Assembly (NCBI GenBank): GCA_021778845.1
Contig: JAJYBU010000009.1
Span: 52,611 to 116,610 of the forward strand
DNA from: Acidobacteriota bacterium
Lineage (GTDB): Bacteria; Acidobacteriota; Terriglobia; Terriglobales; Acidobacteriaceae
Length of the DNA: 64,000 nt
Direction: 5' to 3'
Part shown: positions 40,840-52,592 of the stretch, in pieces
Position numbering within the stretch: the first letter of the stretch is position 1
Layout of the letters: the number at the start of each line of letters is the position of its first letter
Notes under the pieces: generated by a model
Seen by the model: the letters and a program-made list of their open reading frames with translations, nothing else
Told to the model about the DNA's origin: nothing
The model's database searches: none
Translations under genes and position numbers: made by a program

Positions 40840-42468
40840 CTATGTTCCGCTGGCCGGTGAGCCTGTCTCTTTGGAGAACTGCTCGCGCAGCACGCGGCGG
40901 AGCAACTTCCCGTTATGATTCTGCGGGAGCGTGCCGGGAGCGAAGATCCAGATGCGGCGTGGCGATTTGTAGGCCGCAAGCTGCTGGCGGCAGAAGTCCA
41001 TCAGGGCCTGCTCGCTGGTCGCAGCGCCGCTGTGCAGTTCGACAGCCGCGGCGGGAATCTCGTGCATCTCCTTGTGGGGAAGGCCGAACGCAACGGCGCG
41101 GGCGACGGCGGGATGCGCGAGCACGGCCTCTTCCAACTCACGGACGTAGACCGAGTAGCCGCCGGACTTGATGACATCCTTGATGCGCCCGACCAGGCGA
41201 ATGAGCCCAAGGCGGTTGCGCGTCGCCAGGTCGCCGGTGCGCAACCAGCCATCGGAGGTCAGCAGGGCGCTGCTCTCGGCTTCGCCTTTTTCATCCTTCC
41301 AGTAGTGCGGAGCAAGCCCGCGGCGACGGATCTGGCACTCGCCGGTCGCGCCGGTGGGTACCGGTCTTCCCTGCTCGTCAACCACGCGAATGTGAAAGGG
41401 CGGCACGGGAAAGCAGAGGTCGCCGCTGCCGGGCAACAGCGACAGTTCCACGCCCATCATGGCGAGACCGCCAAGCTCGACCATGCCGTAGCCATTGAGC
41501 AGCACGGGAGGAATGCGCCAGCCGCCGGGCAGGCGCAACAGTGCTCCATACGCGCGCAGACGCTGACGGACTTCGGAGGGTAGATGGTCGCTGGCAGAGA
41601 GCCACACACGCACGCTTGCGAGACGTGCGGGGTCCGGGTTGCTGTCGACCAGCCGGGCAAACATGGCGGGGACGCCAACAAAGGCGGTGATGCGGAAGCG
41701 CTCGGCGAGATCGAGGGCACTGGCGACGTCGAAGCGATCGAGAAAACAGCCGCGAATGCCCGCCATCAGACCGTACAGCGCGATGCTGACTGCCATGATG
41801 TGCGACCACGGCAGAGCGATGAGCGCGAGATCGCTGGCGCCGAGCAGAACGCCGGTGAGCACGGTGGAGGAGCGCGCACCCAGGAGCGCGTTGCTGGAGA
41901 GAACAGCGCCCTTGGGAAAGCCACTGGTCCCGGAGGTGTGGAAGATGGCCACGGTTGCGGCCGGATCAACGGCTATCGGTGGGAAAGATGGTCCGGTGAC
42001 GCTGGCGCGGACAAATCCATCGAGAGTGTCGGCCTCGTCATCGGCCTGGATCCAGGTGTGAACAGGCAGAGCGCTGCGATCGGCGATGCTGCGTTGGAAG
42101 ACAGCCTTATCGGTAACGAGAATCTCCGTGCCGCTGTCGCCGAGAATGCGCCGCACCTCGGCAAGAGAGAGCTGCGGGTTGAGCGGAACAGCGATGCCTC
42201 CGGCGCGGATGATGGCTAGAAACCAGTGGAAGCAGCGGCGATCGTTGGTGCGATAGATGCCGACGAGTTGGCCGGGGCGAAGTCCGACGGAGCGGCGAAG
42301 GAAGGCGTCCATGGAGCAAACGTCTGCGTGCAATTCCGCAAGACGATAGGGGCCGGCTTCGGTGACCGCGACCTCGCAATCGCGTTTGCGCCGCAGCAGC
42401 TCGTCGAGGAGATTGGCCACCGTAACGCTGCCGTCACGTGAGAGTTCGAGGCGCTGGACGATGTTCAT
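40840..42468 (-). CDS. AMP-forming acyl-CoA ligase
   Basis: 542 aa from ATG at 42468, overlapping the reductase stop by four bases. ANL superfamily motifs: P-loop 'AIFHTSGTSGFPKGAVLSS' near 160, 'LNGYGMVELGGLAMMG' near 305, 'GWLRTGDLATRNRLGLIR' near 395, and the C-terminal catalytic Lys in 'TLPQNHNGKLLRRVLREQ'. The protein adenylates a carboxylic acid and passes it to CoA or another acceptor. The partner is an NAD-dependent reductase of the fatty-acyl-reductase type. The substrate is likely a medium or long acyl chain, but this is inferred. Confidence 0.9.
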   Translation of the reverse strand: MNIVQRLELSRDGSVTVANLLDELLRRKRDCEVAVTEAGPYRLAELHADVCSMDAFLRRSVGLRPGQLVGIYRTNDRRCFHWFLAIIRAGGIAVPLNPQLSLAEVRRILGDSGTEILVTDKAVFQRSIADRSALPVHTWIQADDEADTLDGFVRASVTGPSFPPIAVDPAATVAIFHTSGTSGFPKGAVLSSNALLGARSSTVLTGVLLGASDLALIALPWSHIMAVSIALYGLMAGIRGCFLDRFDVASALDLAERFRITAFVGVPAMFARLVDSNPDPARLASVRVWLSASDHLPSEVRQRLRAYGALLRLPGGWRIPPVLLNGYGMVELGGLAMMGVELSLLPGSGDLCFPVPPFHIRVVDEQGRPVPTGATGECQIRRRGLAPHYWKDEKGEAESSALLTSDGWLRTGDLATRNRLGLIRLVGRIKDVIKSGGYSVYVRELEEAVLAHPAVARAVAFGLPHKEMHEIPAAAVELHSGAATSEQALMDFCRQQLAAYKSPRRIWIFAPGTLPQNHNGKLLRRVLREQFSKETGSPASGT

Positions 42469-43571
42469 GAGGTTGCGACAGGCTTGCGGCCCCACTCGCT
42501 GGCGACGCAGTAGTGAAAGAGGCGATCGAGATAGTCGAGCACCGGCGGCGGGTAGACACCGGACGGGCCGAGTAGCCGCTCCGCATTCGTGGTATCAAAC
42601 TGCATGCGCATCGTGAAGTAGTCGCGATAGGCACGGCCGTCACGCAGCACGCGGCGCTTGCTTCCCCACAACGCCATGAAAAGCAGTGGCCGCAATGCGG
42701 CAAAGAAAAATTTGGGGTCGACGTAACGCGGTTCCGGGACGTGGAAGTACTCGGATGCACGCTGCGCAACCTGTGCAATCGTCGCGCTGCCGCGAGGACC
42801 AGCGCAGAGATGGACGGTGCTGCCGAGAGCCGCCTCGTCGAAGGCAAGCTGCGCGACCGCGGTCGCAACAAAATCAACGGGCACGATGTCGAGCACCGCA
42901 TCGGGATAGCCAGGCACGGTACGCCACAAGCGGCGAGCGTAGATCTTCAGCGGCCAGTACATCATCTTGAAGCTCGAGGTGACACCCGTGCGCGAATCGC
43001 CGACGATGATGCTGGGACGCAGAATCACGCCAGGCAGCGATCCAAGGCGCGACTGGACCAATGCTTCGGCTTCGGCCTTGGTCTGCTCGTAGGTGTTGCG
43101 ATAGGTCTGGCCAACCACCAGCTCGCCCTCACGGACGAGATCCGCGCGCTCGCCAGCTACATACGCCGTACCAACATAGGCAAGGCTGCGCAGTTGACGC
43201 GCAGCAGTCGCGAAATCGAGAACCCGGCGCGTACCTTCAACGTTGATGCGGCGAGCTTCCTCGAGCGAGTGATCGAAACGCACGGTCGCAGCGCAGTGAA
43301 TGACGCGCGTGGCCTCGGCAGAAAGGCGACTCCAGACTGCGGAGTCAATCCCGCAGTTGGGTAGACCGACGTCACCGGAATACACCTCGACGCGCGAGCG
43401 CTGATCGGGAGCAATGATCGCATCGGCGCGCTGCTGCCCTGATAGTCCGGGCCGGTCGCGGATGAGCAGTGCGAGCCTGGCGTGAGGTTGCTGCTGCAGA
43501 ATCTCATGCACCAGTTGGGTGCCAAGAAAGCCCGTCGCGCCGGTGATAAGAATAAACTCTTCGTTCGTCAT
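42465..43571 (-). CDS. NAD-dependent reductase, male-sterility/thioester-reductase type
   Basis: 368 aa. Rossmann motif 'ILITGATGFLGTQLVHEIL' at the N-terminus, 'RVIHCAATVRFDHSLEEARR' near 85-105, 'SLAYVGTAYVAGERADL', active-site 'NTYEQTKAEAEALVQS' (Tyr-x3-Lys) and 'GVILRPSIIVGDSRTG'. These mark the extended SDRs that reduce fatty acyl or peptidyl thioesters. The C-terminal ~100 residues differ from fatty acyl-CoA reductases. The ATGA overlap with the acyl-CoA ligase downstream suggests activation and reduction of an acid as one unit. Confidence 0.87.
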   Translation of the reverse strand: MTNEEFILITGATGFLGTQLVHEILQQQPHARLALLIRDRPGLSGQQRADAIIAPDQRSRVEVYSGDVGLPNCGIDSAVWSRLSAEATRVIHCAATVRFDHSLEEARRINVEGTRRVLDFATAARQLRSLAYVGTAYVAGERADLVREGELVVGQTYRNTYEQTKAEAEALVQSRLGSLPGVILRPSIIVGDSRTGVTSSFKMMYWPLKIYARRLWRTVPGYPDAVLDIVPVDFVATAVAQLAFDEAALGSTVHLCAGPRGSATIAQVAQRASEYFHVPEPRYVDPKFFFAALRPLLFMALWGSKRRVLRDGRAYRDYFTMRMQFDTTNAERLLGPSGVYPPPVLDYLDRLFHYCVASEWGRKPVATS

Positions 43572-43660: not shown

Positions 43661-43695
43661 ATAACCGCCAGCACCGGTTCGGTACTGGCGGTTAT
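43661..43695. terminator. Bidirectional hairpin after the cytochrome operon
   Basis: Arms ATAACCGCCAG (43661-43671) and CTGGCGGTTAT (43685-43695) with a 13-base loop that contains ACCGGT. On the minus strand the tail is CATGTTATAT. It sits 61 bases after the last cytochrome gene and upstream of the reductase/ligase pair. T-content after the stem is modest in both directions. Confidence 0.65.
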
Positions 43696-43755: not shown

Positions 43756-44487
43756 CTACTTTTGCCCGTAGACGGTCCCGGCAGGTCGATACGGAGGATC
43801 CGCCATGACCCGGATGTAGGCAATGACAGCTTGAACATCGGTAGGGCTCAACGTGTTGCCGTACGGCGGCATCAGCGCTGAACGATTGAGCGCTGGGCCT
43901 CCATGTTGAATGATCGAAAGCATGTCCGCATTGCTCATCTTGTTGTACGTATTGCCGTCGGTGAAGGCATGCGGCTTCACCGCGAGGTTGTCGTAGTTCG
44001 AGACCTGCGCCGCGGAAGATTCCGGATCGTGGCAACGGCTACAGTACTTGTCCTGAAGAATAGAGCCAAGCTGCTGCTGATAACCGAGCGCCGTCTCCGC
44101 AATCTGCAGCGTCACGGGATGTGACTTTCCGGGGGTGGTGGCGCTGACTTCATAGAGACCGCCGATGGTGCCGAGCCGGACAGCCGTGGTGGCCTGACCG
44201 CTGGAGTCGGTAAGCACCGCAGCGGGATCGAAGAGCACACCCGCAGGACCGTGGAACTCGACGAGCGCCCCGGTGACCGAATTGCCCTGATCGTCATTGA
44301 CCTGCACGACCAGCGGGTTGGCCAGCACCGATCCCGTCGGTGCCGCCTGCTTGTCGCCGCTCGATACGACGATCGCCGAACCGGTGGCGGTTGGTTTCAG
44401 ACCAGACGAGGACGTGGATGGGTGTTTGCATCCGGTCCCAATAGTCGTCAGCAACAGCACTGCGCATGCAACGGGTCGCCTTGTCAT
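43756..44487 (-). CDS. Monoheme cytochrome c lipoprotein with Ig-like domain
   Basis: 243 aa. Lipoprotein leader with lipobox-like 'TTIGTGCKH' (Cys20), so probably anchored to a membrane. Residues ~45-130 form a bacterial Ig-like (Big_1) domain: 'PLVVQVNDDQGNSVTGALVE', 'LTDSSGQATTAVRLG'. A class I cytochrome c domain follows with 'DKYCSRCHDPESS' (Cys-Ser-Arg-Cys-His) and a likely Met ligand in 'ALMPPYGNTLS'. It overlaps the octaheme gene by four bases and ends the operon. It could be the exit point or a dock for another electron carrier. Confidence 0.85.
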   Translation of the reverse strand: MTRRPVACAVLLLTTIGTGCKHPSTSSSGLKPTATGSAIVVSSGDKQAAPTGSVLANPLVVQVNDDQGNSVTGALVEFHGPAGVLFDPAAVLTDSSGQATTAVRLGTIGGLYEVSATTPGKSHPVTLQIAETALGYQQQLGSILQDKYCSRCHDPESSAAQVSNYDNLAVKPHAFTDGNTYNKMSNADMLSIIQHGGPALNRSALMPPYGNTLSPTDVQAVIAYIRVMADPPYRPAGTVYGQK

Positions 44488-46541
44488 TGCTTTCCCTCCT
44501 GCTTGCCGGGGCTCTTCAGCGTCATCAGGAACGCTGTCATCGCACGGGCATCTTCATCACTGATGTTCTGGTTAGGTTCGATCGTGCCGGGGCGCAGCGC
44601 CTGCGGATTCTTTAGCCACGCATAGATCCAGGCTGGTTGCAGCCGCGTTCCCACCTGGGCCAACACCGGGCCGATGTAGCCTTTGTCGGTGTTGGTGTTG
44701 GCTGTGTGACAGGACTGGCAGGCATACTTCGAGTAGAAGAGCTGTCGGCCCTGCTCCACCAGCGCGGGTGGATTGACCGCGGGTGGCGCCTTGTCGGGAT
44801 CGATGTTCGGGGACTGATACGCGACCATGATGTAGTCAGTGAGGGTCTTGCGATCCGCATCCGACAGGTTGAAGCGAGGCATACGCCGTGTAAGCGCCGG
44901 CCGCAGCGTGTTGGGGTTCTTGAGGAAGCTGTCCAGCCATTGAGCCTGCACGGCACTGCCCTCAAGAGAGAGATCGGGAGCCAGGTCGCTGCCGTGTCCG
45001 TTGATGCGGTGGCAACTGAAGCAGGCCAGATCGGCCATGAGCTTGCCTGCACGTCCGGCCGGCTCATAGGTTGTTTGATGGACGCCTGGGATGCGCAGCT
45101 TTTCGGGCATCGTCTGGCTGCGCTCAGAGAGCGCGAGCAGAGCGGTCGTAACCGATTCTCGCTGGGCATCGGTGAGGGGAAGCAGCGGCATCTTCATCCC
45201 GGGACCAAACGCACTTGGATCCTTGATCTTGGACGCAATGTAGGTGGGCAGCGTCTGCTTCATGCCGGGGAGGAAGATGAGTTGAGCCAGAGGCTTGCTG
45301 CCGATCTGGCTGAGATCCGGAGCAAAGTTATCCGGCTTCTTGACGCCATTGATCGTGTGGCAGGCCGCACAGCCAAGTTCTGCCACCAACTTTCTGCCAT
45401 GCGCGATCTGCGCCGCAGTTGCAGTACCGAGATGGACATCGGTGCTGTAGTCGGAGTCGGACTTGCTCATCAGGAAGCCAGTGAGCGTGGCGACCTGCTG
45501 AGGCGTGAAGCGATAGTGCGGCATCAGCGTGTGCGCGTCGTAGGAATGCGGATTCTCGATCCATGCCTGCAGCCATGCTGGCTTTACCTTGTTACCGACA
45601 CGGGTCAGTTCAGGACCTACATCGCCGCCAACCAGGTTACCTGCCGCGTTCTGAACGGCGTGGCAGGTGGCGCAGAACGACTCGCCATAGAGACTCGCTC
45701 CTGCAGATGGGTCGGCATTCTTCGCGGCAGGAATGATCGTCGTATCAACGTCCCCTGCCAGCGGCTTGCTGCTGCTGATCAGGTATGCTGAGAGATCGCT
45801 GGCATCCGCGTCACTAAGCTTGTAGTTCGGCATGGTGGCCGACGCTGCGTAGGCCTGCGGATTCTTCAGCCAGGTGAAGATCCATTCGCGGGTGGTCTTA
45901 TCCGCAATGTGTTCGAGTGACGGAGGATCGTCGGTCGCCTTCATCACGGTGCCGTCAGGCATCTTGACCATGTGGCAGTTGACGCAGCCGTATTGCGCGA
46001 GATACTGGCGGCCAAGATTGAGTTGCGGCGTCCCGGTAAGTGCATTCTGGTGGCACTGACCGCAGCCTGACTCGATGTAGCGCGCGGGAAGGATGGGATC
46101 GACACCAGCGAGCTTGCTGTAATGTGCCTCTTCCACTGTTGTCGCAGCACCCTGGCCGCGATGGCAGATGGTGCAGCCGTAGCGGTCGAGCGGATGCGGG
46201 ATCACGGGATGTTTGCGAAATGGCTGCGTCGTGACATCGGCGAGGCTGGCCTCTTTGAGCCCCTCATGGCAGGTCTCGCAACGATCAACCACACCGATCT
46301 CGGGGTGCCATATCTGCTGGATCCCGGGCTCGAAGCGACGGCGAAGGCTGATAGCGTCGCCGCGTTCGCGGATCATCGCGAGATAACCGTTTTGATAGCC
46401 GTGCCACTGACTGAAATGATCTTTCGCAGGAGCAATGGCGAGGGTGAGCATCAGAATGACGCTGACTATGCCGAAGGCGCGCATGGTGTCCCCAAAGAGC
46501 GCACGCCACGCAGAAGAGATGAGTTGCTTGACGGACTTCAC
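44484..46541 (-). CDS. Octaheme c-type cytochrome
   Basis: 685 aa with one N-terminal membrane helix ('MRAFGIVSVILMLTLAIAP'). Eight CxxCH sites in order: CETCH, CTICH, CGQCH, CVNCH, CATCH, CAACH, CFSCH, CQSCH. Repeated 'WLKNP...MPNYKLSDADASDL'-type stretches show that the protein is built from duplicated monoheme domains of ~90 residues, with Met ligands ('MPNYKL', 'MPHYRF', 'MPRFNL'). This is unlike the compact c-haem stacks of Hao or MtrA. It is inside the bc operon, one base after the cytochrome b C-terminal gene, so it is likely the c1-like electron acceptor of that complex. Confidence 0.9.
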   Translation of the reverse strand: MKSVKQLISSAWRALFGDTMRAFGIVSVILMLTLAIAPAKDHFSQWHGYQNGYLAMIRERGDAISLRRRFEPGIQQIWHPEIGVVDRCETCHEGLKEASLADVTTQPFRKHPVIPHPLDRYGCTICHRGQGAATTVEEAHYSKLAGVDPILPARYIESGCGQCHQNALTGTPQLNLGRQYLAQYGCVNCHMVKMPDGTVMKATDDPPSLEHIADKTTREWIFTWLKNPQAYAASATMPNYKLSDADASDLSAYLISSSKPLAGDVDTTIIPAAKNADPSAGASLYGESFCATCHAVQNAAGNLVGGDVGPELTRVGNKVKPAWLQAWIENPHSYDAHTLMPHYRFTPQQVATLTGFLMSKSDSDYSTDVHLGTATAAQIAHGRKLVAELGCAACHTINGVKKPDNFAPDLSQIGSKPLAQLIFLPGMKQTLPTYIASKIKDPSAFGPGMKMPLLPLTDAQRESVTTALLALSERSQTMPEKLRIPGVHQTTYEPAGRAGKLMADLACFSCHRINGHGSDLAPDLSLEGSAVQAQWLDSFLKNPNTLRPALTRRMPRFNLSDADRKTLTDYIMVAYQSPNIDPDKAPPAVNPPALVEQGRQLFYSKYACQSCHTANTNTDKGYIGPVLAQVGTRLQPAWIYAWLKNPQALRPGTIEPNQNISDEDARAMTAFLMTLKSPGKQEGKQ

Positions 46542-47246
46542 TTAGCTCCTCCAGGGCAATACCCACGACCATCCGGGGCCGCGGAAAAAGGTGCCAACCG
46601 CTGTCAGCACGATGAGTTCAAAAAGAAACCAGGTCATGACCCACCAGGCCATGGGCTTGCTTGCGAGGTACCGCCGCGGAGCACTGAGCGACGTAGGGGA
46701 GCTGTTGGCTGCAATCATCATCGCAATCGCAACGATCAAGGTGGGAACCGCAGCTACATACACATGGAATGCAACCAGAAACACGATCAGACCGATGGCC
46801 GTAATGTAGAAGATCTGCAAGCGCCGCTGGCGGTTATTTAGAAACAGGCCGGCTGCTTCGATGTTGATGTTGAAGTACGGGATGATGACGAGCGAGACGA
46901 CGAGCATGGTTGGAACCAGCACGCCGGCGACTACGGGCGGGAAATAATGCAGCAACTCCTGCAACCCGAGAAAGTACCATGGAGCCTTCGCGGGATTGGG
47001 GGTGTGGGTTGCGTCTGCAATGCCCTCCAGCGGAGCGTTGAACAGCAGGGCCACGACCACCAGCACAATCGCCAGAATCTCAACAGCGAGCAACACGCGG
47101 AAGAGCACTTCCGGATAGGTCTGAACCTGCTCTTCATAGTGGGCTTTGACCTGCGCCGACGTGCGGCGAGTGACAAAGACGACCCGTGTTGGAGAACGCC
47201 GCTGATCGGAGTCAACGCCTGCAACAAAATCCTTGGGGTCACTCAT
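46542..47246 (-). CDS. Cytochrome b C-terminal subunit (subunit IV-like)
   Basis: 234 aa. Four membrane helices after a ~50-residue cytosolic start. The PEWY-like loop is '[19 protein letters not shown]' near 90, and '[20 protein letters not shown]' follows. This is the C-terminal half of cytochrome b as in b6f-type split complexes. The loop forms part of the quinol oxidation site. The end of the upstream cytochrome b gene overlaps its start by four bases. Confidence 0.9.
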
Positions 47247-48037
47247 TGGACCTCCTTGACGAGCTCTGTTTCATCCACGGCTCCTGCCTTCTTAGGCTCA
47301 CTCTGGTGTACGTAGAGGCCACCATCCTTGCGAATGCGCCAGAAGTGCACTGCCACGAACAGCAGCGCCGCTAGCGGCAGGATGAGGCAGTGCAAGACAT
47401 AGAAGCGCAGTAGCGCATTGGCGTCCACCTGGTTACCGCCGAGCAGCAGGAAGTGAATCTTGCTGCCCACCAGCGGAACAGCCGCGGAGATATTCGAACC
47501 CACGGTGATTGCCCAATACGCAAGCTGGTCCCACGGCAGCAGATAGCCGGTGTAGCTGAGCAACAACGTGATCAGCAACAGCACCACACCGATGACCCAG
47601 TTGAACTCGCGGGGTGCACGGTAGGCTCCGCGATAGAAGACCTTGAACATGTGCGCGAAGACCAGGAAGACCATGGCCTGCGCCGACCAGCGATGCAGAT
47701 TACGAAGGAACAGTCCGGACGAGACGACGAACTGCAGGTCCTTCATATCCGCGTACGCCTGCGGAACCGACGGATGGTAGTACAGCATCAGCAGCACGCC
47801 GGTGACGATGAGGATGAAAAACGTCCCCAGGGTCAGCGTGCCGAGATACCAGGTGGAGCTGAAGCTAAGCATCCGCTTGCGCACCTTGGTAGAGAAGAGA
47901 TGCAGGAAGACGCTCTGCTGAATTGCCAGGGCGTTATGAAGAGTGCTGGTGCCGCGTCCGCTGCGGAAGATGGAACGCCACACCCGGCTCTGCTCTACCT
48001 GCTCGAGGATCTTGTCGATTTTTCCGGGCATGCTCAT
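47243..48037 (-). CDS. Cytochrome b N-terminal subunit (b6-like)
   Basis: 264 aa. Four helices with two His pairs for two b haems: '[17 protein letters not shown]' (helix B) and '[20 protein letters not shown]' (helix D). '[18 protein letters not shown]' is the cd-loop motif. The length and separate C-terminal gene match the b6/petB layout used in many Gram-positive and acidobacterial bc complexes. It overlaps Rieske (48034-48037) and the C-terminal subunit (47243-47246). Confidence 0.92.
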
Positions 48038-48525
48038 ATCCTCAAAAACTGCAATGGATGAATATCTGTGGAGCGATCGACCATCAGCTCGCCTTCATCG
48101 CTAACCCAGGTCTTGAGCCACGGAAGCGGCTTCGGCGCGGGGCCTGCGATCTTGACTCCGGTACGCGTGAACTCGCTGCCGTGGCAGGGGCACTTGATCA
48201 TCCCCAACTCCTGGTTCCACGCCGTCAGGCAGCCCAGATGGGTGCAGATGGCGCTAAGCGCGAAAAAACCCTCGGCGATATGCACCAGATAGATGGCCGC
48301 GTTGGGATCCATCGTCACCGAGTCCAACGCAAAGTCTTCGGGCTTGCCGAGATTGACGATGGGAGACGGCTCGTACAAAACGTTGGGAGAGAGATACTGA
48401 TACGCGAAGCCTGCGGTTCCGGCCGCAGCGATGGCGAGCGAGCCGAGACCAATCTTGGCGAAGAAGGCGCGCCGGTTTATCTCGCCGGACGCAGGGGTTG
48501 ATTCGAGTCGTTTACTTTCGGCCAT
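48034..48525 (-). CDS. Rieske iron-sulfur subunit
   Basis: 163 aa. Tat leader '[20 protein letters not shown]' that may stay as a membrane anchor. Cluster ligands: Cys94 and His96 in 'SAICTHLGC', Cys112 and His115 in '[11 protein letters not shown]'. Cys99 and Cys114 give the usual disulfide. 'GPAPKPLPW' is the Pro loop. It belongs to the bc operon, four bases after the flavoprotein gene and overlapping cytochrome b. Confidence 0.93.
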
Positions 48526-48528
48526 GGA

Positions 48529-50511
48529 TTACCTCACACTTGCAGTTGCAACGGGCGGTGCTGGTCTAAATGCCCGGTCGATAGAATCCACTGAAATCAA
48601 ACCAGTGGAGGCTACGGGCAAAATATTGTAGGACTCCATCGTGATGGTGCCTGCCGGGCAGCGCGCTGCACACAGTCCACAACGAATGCAGCGAGACTCA
48701 TCTTTCAGCATCGCGGAGCCGGTGATGACGCCGAGCTCATCGGCCTGAATGTCATTCAGTTCGAGGCCCAGCAACTCGCGGGCATCGGAGATCTTCGCCG
48801 TCGTGTCGTCGCTGAATGCGATGCGGTCGAGCGAGACAAGCTGGAGGCACTGCTCGGGGCAGACATCGACGCAGCCACCGCACAGGATGCACATTGTTCC
48901 ATCCTGCGGAGTGCCCTCGAAGACCGTATTGACCCAGCAGTGGAGGCACCGCTGCGCCTCAGCCATCGCCGAAGCCTCGTCGTATCCAACTTCAACTTCG
49001 GTCACGCCAGTGCGCCGGTTGAGCGGAAGCATGGGAATCGGCTGGCGTACGAGATCAAGCAGATCCAGCGGCATCCGATAGCGATCCATTACCGTAACTT
49101 CGACTACGGGATCGGCATGCTTTTCGCCGCGCAGATACTCGTCGATGCCAACCGCAGCACGCTTGCCATCGGCGACGCTGTCGATGATCAGACGCGGTCC
49201 GAAGACGCAGTCTCCGCCGGCGAAGACGCCTGCTGCCGTCGTCATCAGCGTCTGTGGATTGACGGCGATCAGACCGCGCGGCGAAATTTCTACGCCGTCC
49301 TCAGGCTGGAAGAAATCAAGCTTGGCAGCCTGGCCGATGGCCATGATGATGGTGTCGCACTCGAGCTCGGTTTCGCTGTTCTCGTAGAACGTGGGACTGA
49401 AGCGCCGGTTCGCATCAAAGACGGACTTGGTCTTCAGTGCTTCAAGTGCCACCACGCGGCCATTCTTACCGATAATCTGCTTGGGGCCAAAGCCTGCATG
49501 GATAATGATGCCTTCTTCTTCGGCCTCTTCAATCTCCTCCAGCGCCGCAGGCATCTCCGCTCGCGTTTCGAGGCAAACGAGATGAACCTCCTGAGCACCG
49601 AGTCGCAGCGCCGAAAGCGAGACGTCCATCATCTCGCGGGTTGCCACGGCGTCCATGCTCTCCTGCGAGGGCTCGATGTGTTCGACACCGCCGACATGCT
49701 GGCGCAGCACTTCACGCGCAGCGGAGCGTGCCACATCCATGGCCACATTTCCGCCGCCGATGACGAGAACCTTCTTGCCAATGGTGAACCGGTAGCCGAG
49801 GTTCACGTTGAGCAGGAAATCGATGCCCTTATATACGCCATCGAGATCAACGCCGGGGATGGTGAGGTCGCGGCTGCGATGCGCTCCCACCGCGATCAGC
49901 GTCGCGTCATAGTCGCGGCGGAGGTCGGCGATGCTGAAGTCGCGGCCCGCGGCCTGATTCAGCTTCAGCGTGATATTGCCGGTCTCAAGAATCTCGCGGA
50001 CCTGCGCTTCAACCACGTCGCGCGAGAGCCGATACTCCGGCAAGCCCAGGTAGAGCATGCCGCCCGGTACCTGCGAGGCCTCATAGAGCGTGACAGCGTA
50101 GCCCATCAGCGCGAGATCGTGCGCGGCGGCGAGCCCAACAGGACCCGCACCAACGATCGCGACACGGTAGGGCAGTGCGGGCTGCACTCGTCCTTCGTTG
50201 ACGTTGATCGGATTACGCGACTCCGGTCCGTGGCGTTCGGTGAGGAAGCGCTTGAGGGCGCGGATTGCGATTGGCTTGTCAACCTCGCCGCGGCGGCACG
50301 CCGTCTCGCAAGGATGCGCGCACACACGGCCACAGATGCTGGCCAGTGGATTCGGCTCGCGTGCGTAACGATACGCGTCTTCGAAGTTTCCTTCAGCGAT
50401 GAGTTCGACGTAGCGGCCGGCATTGGTATGCGCGGGACAGGCCATCATGCATGGGAAGTTGGTATTCAACCAATCCCTATCCACCTTCTTGTCGACAAAG
50501 CGGTGCGGCAT
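48529..50511 (-). CDS. GltD-like NAD(P)H flavoprotein with two [4Fe-4S] ferredoxin motifs
   Basis: 660 aa. The N-terminal Fe-S region is as in glutamate-synthase beta subunits: 'CMMACPAHTNAGRYV', 'ICGRVCAHPCETACRRGEVD'. FAD site 'VAIVGAGPVGLAAAHDLALM' near 115; NAD(P)-site 'VLVIGGGNVAMDVARSA' near 250; 'GVFAGGDCVFGPRLIIDSVA' near 440. Then two ferredoxin motifs: 'CILCGGCVDVCPEQC' and 'CIRCGLCAARCPAGT'. No glutamate synthase large subunit is nearby. Inside a bc operon it most likely links NAD(P)H and the quinone/bc chain, in either direction. The start ATG at 50511 follows a purine-rich site. Confidence 0.88.
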   Translation of the reverse strand: MPHRFVDKKVDRDWLNTNFPCMMACPAHTNAGRYVELIAEGNFEDAYRYAREPNPLASICGRVCAHPCETACRRGEVDKPIAIRALKRFLTERHGPESRNPINVNEGRVQPALPYRVAIVGAGPVGLAAAHDLALMGYAVTLYEASQVPGGMLYLGLPEYRLSRDVVEAQVREILETGNITLKLNQAAGRDFSIADLRRDYDATLIAVGAHRSRDLTIPGVDLDGVYKGIDFLLNVNLGYRFTIGKKVLVIGGGNVAMDVARSAAREVLRQHVGGVEHIEPSQESMDAVATREMMDVSLSALRLGAQEVHLVCLETRAEMPAALEEIEEAEEEGIIIHAGFGPKQIIGKNGRVVALEALKTKSVFDANRRFSPTFYENSETELECDTIIMAIGQAAKLDFFQPEDGVEISPRGLIAVNPQTLMTTAAGVFAGGDCVFGPRLIIDSVADGKRAAVGIDEYLRGEKHADPVVEVTVMDRYRMPLDLLDLVRQPIPMLPLNRRTGVTEVEVGYDEASAMAEAQRCLHCWVNTVFEGTPQDGTMCILCGGCVDVCPEQCLQLVSLDRIAFSDDTTAKISDARELLGLELNDIQADELGVITGSAMLKDESRCIRCGLCAARCPAGTITMESYNILPVASTGLISVDSIDRAFRPAPPVATASVR

Positions 50512-50591
50512 GACGGTCCTTTCTTACAGTGGGAGCTTACAGTGGGAGAGATATTCGGCGGCAACCTCGACGGGTTGCCGCCGTGGAGGGG

Positions 50592-51170
50592 TTACTTGAT
50601 GGTGAAGTTGGCGGCCGTGTCGCCGGCGACCTTGACGGTGCTGTTGGAGGGCTGCTTGCCTTCATGCCAGGCGGTCACGGTGTAGGAGCCATCGGGCACG
50701 TTCTCGATCTTGAAGTCTCCCGCCTTATCGGTCAAAGCAAAGTAGGGCGTGGGAGAGACAACAAGGTAACCCGCCATGTCGGGATGCACATTGCAGAGCA
50801 GCGGAACGATGCCCGGGTTATCGAACTTGAAGGACTGGTGCTGACCCTGGGGCCAGGTTCCCATGTTGTGACCCAGCTTCTTGTTGCCGCTGATGGAGGG
50901 CCAGAAGACGTTGTGCGCGACGCTGTCGCTGTTGAGGAACTCGACCGTAGTTCCCTGCTGAACCACCACGATGTGCGGCATGAACATCAGACCCTTCTGG
51001 TCGATGGTGACGTGCTGCGCGGGGGCGGGGAACGTCTTTCCGGGGATAGCTTCCACATAGACGACGGATTCGCCCTTGACGCCGGCTACCTTGCCATGGA
51101 TGGTGCCGGCAAAGGCCGCCGTGCTGCAAGCGGTGAGGAGGGTGAGTACTGCTAGAGCCGTGCGTTTCAT
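50592..51170 (-). CDS. Periplasmic blue-copper (cupredoxin) protein
   Basis: 192 aa, signal peptide cleaved near AFAG (residue 21). The type 1 copper set can be read: His86 in 'SVAHNVFWPS' and Cys126, His129, Met132 in 'LLCNVHPDMAGY', plus the 'VVQQGTTVEFLNSD' strand. Residues ~140-192 form a small carboxypeptidase-regulatory-like sandwich ('ALTDKAGDFKIENVPDGSYT', 'VTAWHEGKQ'). It acts as a mobile electron carrier. It lies between the Cyc2-like porin and the flavoprotein/bc genes and may do the job rusticyanin does in iron oxidisers. Often annotated as a methylamine-utilisation protein, without evidence here. Confidence 0.85.
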   Translation of the reverse strand: MKRTALAVLTLLTACSTAAFAGTIHGKVAGVKGESVVYVEAIPGKTFPAPAQHVTIDQKGLMFMPHIVVVQQGTTVEFLNSDSVAHNVFWPSISGNKKLGHNMGTWPQGQHQSFKFDNPGIVPLLCNVHPDMAGYLVVSPTPYFALTDKAGDFKIENVPDGSYTVTAWHEGKQPSNSTVKVAGDTAANFTIK

Positions 51171-51236
51171 GTTGTCTCCTGTTGGTGCTGAATGGGTAAA
51201 TTATGTACGATGCGTGGTCCGAAGTTCAGGCCGCCA

Positions 51237-52580
51237 TCAAAAAATGAAGCGTGCAAGTAGATAGACCGTATTATTGTCACTCGCATTGCGCCCCGCGCCA
51301 TCATAGTTCGTGGATCCACCGTTGAAGCGGGTGTACCCGGTATATTGCACGGCGAGGTCCACGTTCTGCAAGGGCCAGTAGGACAGGTTGGCGATGTATC
51401 CAGCGCTGTGCGGGCTGCTGCTGGCGCTGCCGGAGATTGCGGCTGGAGCGTACAGAAATGGGTCGGATGTTCCTGTGGTATCGAACATTCCAAAAGCTCC
51501 TGAGTAGCGGTCGCCAAAGTGGTACTCGACGTTGGCGTTGCCCGAGTTCAGCTTATGGTCGATCGCCTCTCCCGGATTGGCGGCTGCCGTTGCCGCCAGG
51601 GAAGCCGTCTCGTGGATGAAGGTGCCACGCACGGTGAGCGTATCTTTCCGATGGATGGTCAGGTCGTACTGAAGGTCCGGACCAAAGTCTGTGTAGGTAT
51701 CCTGGGGTCCCGTGACTGCTCCCGGGGTGGAAGCGACGTGCATGCCGTAGGCGCCGACTTCAAGATCATACTTGGCTCCAACCTGCTGCCATGCCGCTCG
51801 CCAGTAGGGCGCAACGCCGCGGATGTTGTAGCTGGCACCCTGCCCGTTCGTCGGCTGAGAGCTTCCAATGTGATCGGAACGGTACACCGTCAGGTCCCCG
51901 TAGAGATGCTTGTCCCACATGGCGTAACCACCGATGCCTGCGACGTCCTCAGCAAGCAATCCGTTTATGATCGGTGCGGCCGCCGGCGTCGGCGCCGAAT
52001 CGGAAGCGATGAACGGATAGCCCCATGCCGGCGTATCATTCCACAGATCTTCAAGGGTGGGATTGTTGTTCAACGTGATGCCGTAGACGAAATCCTTCCC
52101 CCCAACCTTGGCGGTGTTGGCATAGCGGATATCGGTGTTATCCATGCCGAAGTGGTCGGCCTGCGCATCGTAGGTCACCTGCAGAAAGCTGCCGAGGTGG
52201 TCTCCCCATGCACCAGCGAGGAAGAGCGATACGTCCTGCGGAAACTCGAAGTTGCCATTCTGCGTCCCAGGCTGCGCTGCCTTCGTGCTGTCGAACGAGG
52301 TCTCAAACCAGGCGCCGAGCGGCAGTACCTGCAGCAGGTTCATCGGAGCGTAGCGCTGGCTGGATGCGGCCGAAATGAGGTCGCGGTTGGCTGCCCGGTT
52401 GACGTACCCGAGAAGCTTGAATTGCCGGCCTGCGTCATTCAACTCCGGTGGCGTCGTGTGGCAGCCAGTGCAGGGTAAGCCAGTCTGGCGCGCGTAGCTG
52501 GGAAGCGCGTGGGCCCTGGGGGCGAAACCACCCAGTGCAAGCATTCCCGCTACTACAGAAAGCACAATTGTACGTCTCAT
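51237..52580 (-). CDS. Cyc2-like cytochrome-porin fusion
   Basis: 447 aa from ATG at 52580, with GGAGG five bases upstream; ATG at 52592 is the alternative. Signal peptide to about AHA (residue 25), then 'LPSYARQTGLPCTGCHTTPP' with Cys37, Cys40 and His41, and 'ELNDAGRQFKLLGYVN'. This ARQTG-CxxCH-x-P-x-LN-x-GR-x-FK-x2-GY block closely resembles the start of Cyc2, the outer-membrane iron oxidase. The remaining ~390 residues are amphipathic beta strands and end 'NTVYLLARFIF', a barrel-type terminal Phe. It is the first gene of the respiratory operon. Cyc2 activity is inferred; related porin-cytochromes of unknown donor exist. Confidence 0.78.
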   Translation of the reverse strand: MRRTIVLSVVAGMLALGGFAPRAHALPSYARQTGLPCTGCHTTPPELNDAGRQFKLLGYVNRAANRDLISAASSQRYAPMNLLQVLPLGAWFETSFDSTKAAQPGTQNGNFEFPQDVSLFLAGAWGDHLGSFLQVTYDAQADHFGMDNTDIRYANTAKVGGKDFVYGITLNNNPTLEDLWNDTPAWGYPFIASDSAPTPAAAPIINGLLAEDVAGIGGYAMWDKHLYGDLTVYRSDHIGSSQPTNGQGASYNIRGVAPYWRAAWQQVGAKYDLEVGAYGMHVASTPGAVTGPQDTYTDFGPDLQYDLTIHRKDTLTVRGTFIHETASLAATAAANPGEAIDHKLNSGNANVEYHFGDRYSGAFGMFDTTGTSDPFLYAPAAISGSASSSPHSAGYIANLSYWPLQNVDLAVQYTGYTRFNGGSTNYDGAGRNASDNNTVYLLARFIF

Positions 52581-52592
52581 GATCCTCCTCAT

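Follow-up and report, generated by a model that had tools for sequence, protein, structure and literature searches.

Gene content of the cluster

The 64,000-nucleotide stretch analysed here (the window; contig JAJYBU010000009.1 of the Acidobacteriota assembly GCA_021778845.1) encodes a cluster of eight genes, all on the minus strand, that runs from position 52592 to 43756 with intergenic gaps of at most 80 bp. The cluster is headed by a gene for a Cyc2-like cytochrome-porin and continues with genes for a copper protein, a flavoprotein, a Rieske protein, a split cytochrome b and two c-type cytochromes. In relatives, a cytochrome-porin accompanies this gene set at every adequately flanked locus, and the porin gene itself seems to have been replaced repeatedly by one from another lineage.

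The monohaem cytochrome-porin (51237..52592) carries the motif ALPSYARQTGLPCTGCHTTPPEL and was recognised by its haem motif, by a profile and by a predicted 16-strand barrel. It is 451 amino acids (aa) long if read from the ATG at 52592, and 447 aa if read from the ATG at 52580. It is followed after 66 bp by a type 1 copper protein (cupredoxin; 50592..51170) with the candidate ligands His86, Cys126, His129 and Met132 and a C-terminal carboxypeptidase-regulatory-like domain (Pfam Copper-bind and CarboxypepD_reg). A further 80 bp downstream is a GltD/Nfn-like FAD and 4Fe-4S pyridine-nucleotide oxidoreductase of 660 residues (48529..50511; Pyr_redox_2, Fer4_20 and ferredoxin domains), which is predicted to be cytoplasmic and in which hydropathy revealed no hydrophobic segment. 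Its iron-sulfur motifs lie at the N- and the C-terminus. An earlier note on this DNA, made from the letters alone, had described a flavoprotein with ferredoxin motifs; this description holds as far as it goes, and the N-terminal Fer4_20-type cysteines, absent from it, have to be added.

The gene for the Rieske [2Fe-2S] protein (48034..48525; CTHLGC...CPCHG) starts 3 bp beyond the flavoprotein gene, and from it onward adjoining genes overlap by 4 bp or abut. They encode a cytochrome b6-type subunit (47243..48037) with b-haem histidines 115, 129, 216 and 231, an additional His46, and Tyr64 at the position of the haem cN cysteine; a subunit IV-type C-terminal half of cytochrome b (46542..47246) with five hydrophobic peaks, two of them contiguous; an octahaem c-type cytochrome (44484..46541) with a single N-terminal hydrophobic anchor; and a monohaem cytochrome c (43756..44487), a predicted lipoprotein with a lipobox-like start (TGC) and a Big_1-like spacer. 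The CXXCH motif occurs once in the porin (Cys41), eight times in the octahaem protein and once in the last protein. Rieske, Cytochrome_B and Cytochrom_C domains also scored above the Pfam cut-off, and Cytochrom_B_C (subunit IV) and Big_1 (last protein) slightly below it. The earlier note had the genes, the copper ligand candidates, the haem counts and the tight packing from the Rieske gene on all correct.

Relationship of the porin to Cyc2

The porin had no Pfam or NCBIfam match, and a PDB sequence search returned no match up to E 10. A Cyc2 profile that we built from 25 sequences of iron-oxidiser-type loci (source titles known for 18 of the 25) matched eight of eight window-type porins, with a best E-value of 7e-26 and a median of 3e-24 for a set of 59 sequences. 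The AlphaFold model of the porin is a 16-strand barrel, and the length of the protein and the modelled barrel agree with the at least 365 aa and 16 strands expected of Cyc2. Together, profile and model bear out the claim of the earlier note that a Cyc2-like porin heads the cluster, which a model lacking a barrel would have spoken against. A best match to some non-Cyc2 porin would likewise have counted against it. None came up by sequence, while the closest folds are those of ordinary porins, including OprO and OprP, as has been reported for Cyc2 itself (Keffer et al., 2021; PMC8406198).

Exactly one CXXCH is found in each of the 120 porin homologues listed, and PXL, located four residues past the haem site (CTGCHTTPPEL in the window), is kept in all 120. 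The Cyc2-defining motif of Keffer et al., AXPXFAR[Q/K][T/Y], occurs in strict form in 3 of these 120 homologues and in 116 of them when Y is allowed. Among the 114 sequences from iron-oxidiser-type loci, which were drawn with a pattern containing FARQTG, 110 carry it. The window porin reads ALPSYARQT, and because Y stands where the defining motif has F, we call the protein Cyc2-like rather than Cyc2. Hydropathy peaks at residue 9 and an AHA-like sequence precedes the motif, so that a signal peptide may be present. Window-type porins group together in the porin tree (98), separate from the iron-oxidiser-type Cyc2 set.

We considered a plain Cyc2 iron-oxidation operon and rejected it on account of the Rieske/b6/NAD(P)-type set that accompanies the porin. 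The core flavoprotein, Rieske and b6 genes were found in none of 120 pattern-matched Cyc2 loci (at most 8 kb each, 883 kb in total; 43 of the 80 titles listed are Gallionellaceae genera). One of these loci matched the cupredoxin profile and one the monohaem profile.

Conservation of the core and its porin

Within the family, 33 of 100 genomes have a flavoprotein match at E ≤ 1e-100. At E ≤ 1e-140, matches were detected in 45 of 200 genomes from the class and 38 of 198 from the phylum; the three genome sets overlap. Besides the window, we fetched the loci of 76 of the 106 distinct matches (36/36 from the family, 24/36 new from the class and 16/34 new from the phylum), and scored porin, cupredoxin and the other genes by motif and profile rules. 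A core of cupredoxin and flavoprotein is present in 58 of the 77 loci, window included. The rules found 56 of these, and L247 and L275, in which the cupredoxin was missed, were added from the gene listings. The Rieske, b6, subunit IV, octahaem and monohaem genes are in the same order at the core loci where contig ends permit, although subunit IV was not detected in L275. The copper ligands are present in all 29 core loci surveyed, and 22 of the 23 octahaem genes seen have eight motifs, the remaining one having seven and being cut by a contig end.

A cytochrome-porin gene is upstream in 48 of the 58 core loci, its end within 1 kb of the flavoprotein gene (in L261 it sits between the cupredoxin and flavoprotein genes), and after the last gene in five. 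The five core loci with no porin all have less than 2 kb upstream on the contig. A cytochrome-porin is therefore beside the core in 53 of 53 loci with enough flank. It is also upstream in all five variant loci that have a small monohaem cytochrome at the cupredoxin position, and it was found in none of the 14 other loci with more distant flavoproteins, one of which has only 1,959 bp upstream. The link of the porin to the copper protein, the Rieske/b6 complex and the multihaem cytochromes, which the earlier note had drawn from a single locus, is conserved in the core loci of the relatives. Since the core recurs across the phylum beside a porin in every adequately flanked locus, trading electrons with the outside is likely to be the job of this gene cluster.

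The loci in which a monohaem cytochrome replaces the cupredoxin (L191, L192, L195, L262 and L276) are distant variants of the core, and they call to mind the interchange of plastocyanin and cytochrome c6. An additional or displaced cupredoxin gene was seen upstream of the cytochrome-porin gene in L183, L188, L244, L259 and L261. In L263-L266, L280 and L281 a gene for b6 or subunit IV and one for a heptahaem cytochrome are located upstream of the flavoprotein gene, and no cytochrome-porin was detected.

After the last gene of the window's cluster is a terminator-like hairpin of 16 pairs (43661..43695, minus strand). Its stem is by far the longest among the 13 terminator-like sites of the region (7.8 ± 3.0 in shuffles); weaker ones are located within genes. 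Promoter-like sites in the region are at chance level (4 found, 3.6 expected). Beyond the hairpin, on the same strand (40840-43571), are genes for a short-chain dehydrogenase/reductase (SDR)/thioester-reductase-like protein and an AMP-ligase. As they recur in none of the 36 relatives' loci viewed, they are probably outside the cluster.

Exchange of porin lineages

Two porin lineages occupy the place beside the core. The window type (ARQTG) is found in 10 core loci, upstream in five (window included) and downstream in five. The xRxY type, for example AIPAFSRQYGTSCSTCH, is found in 43 core loci and is upstream in all of them. The two lineages are alignable over 76 N-terminal columns only (profile comparison, probability 96.9). 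The porin is not a fixed part of the operon described in the earlier note, as most relatives carry the other lineage there.

The closest comparison is with L243 of genome G182, the sister locus of the window, whose flavoprotein is 89% identical (support 100) and which carries an xRxY-type porin. The DNA of the two loci is colinear over 7,429 bp at 77% identity, and the similarity stops exactly at the start codon of the cupredoxin. We searched both genomes and found no full-length copy of the other's head porin in either. On the porin tree, two changes are required for the xRxY type. The flavoprotein tree, made by a quick method with Shimodaira-Hasegawa-like approximate likelihood ratio (SH-aLRT) support only and with long branches flagged at L275, L261, L268 and L274, has five changes between porin lineages, five of them forced by starred branches. 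This tree suggests that the porin gene has been swapped for the other lineage several times, in at least five exchanges. The position in the cluster is kept for a kind of protein, not for one orthologue. It holds this kind of porin despite the exchange of lineages, and no other observation speaks as strongly for a haem-bearing port as part of the machine. Repeated exchange at one place also provides a natural experiment on what the porin contributes.

Other cytochrome-porins in the same genome

We identified two further cytochrome-porins in the genome, on contigs C26 and C79. The C26 porin is 51% identical to that of the window and reads AVPSFARQT, a strict match to the Keffer motif. Immediately downstream of it are a second Rieske gene and a gene in which cytochrome b is fused to a multihaem tail (L004:7449-13466), and no flavoprotein was found in the stretch read. 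This cluster is a version of the same idea without a flavoprotein in that stretch. On the other side of the C26 porin is a gene with two CXXCH motifs, which we take to be TsdA-like. The third cytochrome-porin, AVPQFARRYNLKCSACH, has the motif FARRY and is followed by a gene with two CXXCH motifs (C79; L005:7913-10160). A few kb upstream of it is a gene presumably for heavy-metal RND efflux.

Relatives of the C26 porin are encoded on plasmids of Caballeronia, Paraburkholderia, Polymorphobacter, Methylocystis, Acidiphilium, Ideonella and Acidithiobacillus ferrooxidans. Six of nine plasmid records were viewed, and in all six a c-type cytochrome gene is nearby, joined in one by a gene for a high-potential iron-sulfur protein (HiPIP). 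The core-gene profiles had no match in these six loci. The window's genome, which is about 89% complete, also encodes three COX1 genes, and RuBisCO was not found in it.

Resemblance of the predicted inner complex to anammox complexes

A PDB sequence search with the Rieske protein gave 78 matches below 0.001, and the top two were 9rk4 (1.3e-24) and 9rk3 (6.5e-20). These are the Rieske proteins Kuste4569 (printed as Kustd4569 in the table) and Kustd1480 of the anammox bacterium Kuenenia (PMC12954380). The complexes encoded by Kustd1480-1485 and Kuste4569-4574 also contain b6, subunit IV, a cytochrome with six or eight haems and an NAD(P) oxidoreductase. Quinol bifurcation has been proposed as their route to NAD(P)H: of the quinol electrons, one would go up to NAD(P) and one down via the Rieske protein and the multihaem cytochrome (PMC12954380). 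For Kustd1480-1485, no driving partner reaction has been proposed (PMC12954380).

The additional histidine of b6, His46, is found in all 55 module loci and in 15 of 16 related loci, the 16th having a gap, and the segment that contains it is missing from the plain cytochrome b paralogue on contig C26. In the Kuenenia models, a new b haem is proposed on the way to the flavoprotein, with an N-terminal histidine of b6, His43 or His62, as its ligand (PMC12954380), and His46 is a candidate counterpart of this ligand. At the haem cN position, the 55 module loci have Y in 44, W in five, F in four, C in one and A in one (Y/F/W in 53/55). Subunit IV of the anammox type has five helices; for the window protein, hydropathy gives five peaks, of which two run together.

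Two other sites drew our attention. In subunit IV, APW is invariant (51/51) and His100 is present in 50 of 51 sequences, the other having a gap. We take the APW position to be where b-type complexes carry PEWY. The pyridine-nucleotide site of the flavoprotein reads C(L/I)E.R in 25 of 29 core loci (four were missed by the pattern) and YRR in the PDB relatives listed; the difference may bear on NAD versus NADP, and we draw no conclusion from it.

A possible electron path across the envelope

We propose that the outer-membrane cytochrome-porin, the small carriers, the octahaem cytochrome and the Rieske/b6/flavoprotein set could make up one electron path across the envelope. The Rieske/b6 complex would split menaquinol electrons, so that one reduces NAD(P)+ inside and the second passes via the octahaem cytochrome and the small carriers to the porin haem, and from there to an external oxidant. 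In acid soil, this partner may be Fe(III) or some other acceptor of high potential, and an acidic, oxidised outside would pull the chain outward. The porin would then serve a bifurcating Rieske/b6-NAD(P) complex as its exchangeable port in the outer membrane. We infer where the proteins are located, that they form a physical complex, that it bifurcates, that electrons flow outward and what the outside partner is, and we put the probability of a single envelope-spanning path with menaquinol bifurcation and an outward second electron at about 45%.

The haem of Mariprofundus Cyc2 has a potential of about +208 mV (PMC8406198), and NAD(P) and menaquinone have potentials of -320 mV and -70 mV (PMC12954380). 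The mean of the porin haem and NAD(P) potentials, values borrowed from related proteins, is -56 mV, which differs from menaquinone by less than 15 mV. If such values applied here, the path would be near equilibrium and could reverse, taking up electrons from outside at the expense of NAD(P)H. A further step, which we consider rather doubtful, is that Acidobacteriota own a reversible extracellular electron-bifurcation machine, with an interchangeable haem port tied directly to NAD(P)H. If true, soil iron or another outside redox couple would be set against the NAD(P)H pool around menaquinone, and the port would be swapped between lineages as the outside partner changes.

Several observations weigh against the proposed outward path. 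Gene linkage does not prove a physical path. L193 and L278 have the flavoprotein, Rieske, b6, subunit IV and a multihaem gene and no detected porin, and as such clusters exist, related complexes can work without one; porin detection was motif-based, and a diverged porin could be missed. The haem domain of the window porin is modelled at low confidence (pLDDT about 40). The AlphaFold model of the xRxY-type porin is poor (pLDDT 49), so we claim no barrel for it, and its name rests on haem-domain motif and length. The b6 subunit has Tyr64 at the position of the b6f haem cN cysteine, which the anammox models contain. Kuenenia Rieske potentials are above +300 mV (PMC12954380); if the same applied here, transfer to a porin haem at +208 mV would be uphill. 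Given the three COX1 genes, the high-potential electron could simply go to O2. Finally, all three Cyc2 representatives that have been characterised biochemically oxidise iron, which points inward (PMC8406198).

The alternative that fares best, although we consider it less likely than not, is inward flow. The porin would take electrons from dissolved Fe(II) or another outside donor; the copper protein and cytochromes would hand most of them to a terminal oxidase, and some would go uphill via Rieske/b6 into menaquinol. The uphill part would draw on the proton motive force, and NAD(P)H would be a second donor and not a product. There is biochemical evidence of Fe(II) oxidation for one representative of each of the three Cyc2 clusters (PMC8406198), and the window porin matches the iron-oxidiser-type Cyc2 profile. 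The COX1 genes and the cytochrome and HiPIP genes near the plasmid relatives of the C26 porin are in keeping with the same direction. However, the Cyc2 of an acidobacterial metagenome-assembled genome was placed in cluster 3 (PMC9671151), whose involvement in iron oxidation is regarded as uncertain (PMC8406198, PMC13264449), and no oxidase gene was seen in the gene listings of the core loci, in which no search for one was made. The earlier note had suggested that incoming electrons are in part pushed back to NAD(P)H. This conflicts with the anammox proposal, in which NAD(P)H comes from the splitting of quinol electrons (PMC12954380); a reversed NAD(P)-linked bifurcating complex would be expected to consume it. 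The note's analogy with Acidithiobacillus, where uphill flow serves CO2 fixation, lacks support from RuBisCO, as none was found in the roughly 89% complete genome. We slightly favour outward over inward flow.

In a second alternative, which we judge improbable, the cluster would serve metalloid or other soluble oxyanion chemistry, with the porin admitting a soluble oxidant that periplasmic cytochromes reduce, as has been discussed for extHIJKLMNOPQS of Geobacter. The best NCBIfam models are ExtP for b6 and ExtQ for subunit IV, and the octahaem protein has ExtS in second place, each of the three below cut-off; the first match of the octahaem protein, above cut-off, is SoxX. Loss of ExtI lowers selenite and tellurite reduction (PMC5877670). 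On the other hand, the same source, where it describes the cluster, presents ExtI as a porin with no haem named and lists no flavoprotein or cupredoxin, whereas the head genes here carry CXXCH with a conserved surrounding motif. That the porin gene is a mere neighbour, outside the functional unit of the core, might be argued from the 66 bp gap in the window and from the varying porin lineage, but it is hardly credible given a porin at 53/53 testable and 5/5 variant loci versus 0/14 other related loci, and exchanges that bring another cytochrome-porin into the same place.

Comparison with known systems

Our searches among open-licence PubMed Central papers turned up no description of this gene cluster or of porin exchange within it, which does not establish that none is in print. 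What is new here is the 53/53 linkage of core and porin and the exchange of porin lineages at one place.

The rus operon of Acidithiobacillus groups a porin with an oxidase. Table 1 of PMC10654088 lists for Acidithiobacillus the same combination of cytochrome-porin, copper protein and bc-type complex in a single organism; the pet operon, given there as cycA-sdrA-petABC, is without a porin. The ext cluster of Geobacter, like that of the window, combines a porin with Rieske, b-type and multihaem cytochrome genes (PMC5877670). It differs in including a rhodanese, and its description in that source mentions neither a haem in the porin nor a flavoprotein or cupredoxin.

Cyc2 and the window porin are alike in the single N-terminal CXXCH, the upstream ARQT, the PXL, a length of >365 aa, the modelled 16-strand barrel and mutual profile matches (PMC8406198). 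The window porin differs from the Cyc2 of iron oxidisers in having Y for F in the defining motif and in its association with a Rieske/b6/NAD(P) set. Cyc2-like genes form a diverse and widespread group in which many members, above all those of cluster 3, have a role described as uncertain (PMC8406198, PMC13264449); the Cyc2-annotated acidobacterial gene noted above is one of cluster 3 (PMC9671151).

The NAD(P)-linked anammox complexes have in common with the window a Rieske protein, a four-helix b6, subunit IV, a multihaem c-type cytochrome in place of cytochrome f and an iron-sulfur NAD(P) oxidoreductase (PMC12954380). The window, from a different phylum, is without the haem cN cysteine described for them and adds a cupredoxin, a monohaem lipoprotein and a cytochrome-porin. 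In combination, the gene cluster joins two known kinds of system, a Cyc2-like porin and an anammox-type NAD(P)-linked Rieske/b set. One conserved cluster thereby joins two questions, the roles of Cyc2-like genes and the partner reaction of the anammox complex Kustd1480-1485, and makes both testable.

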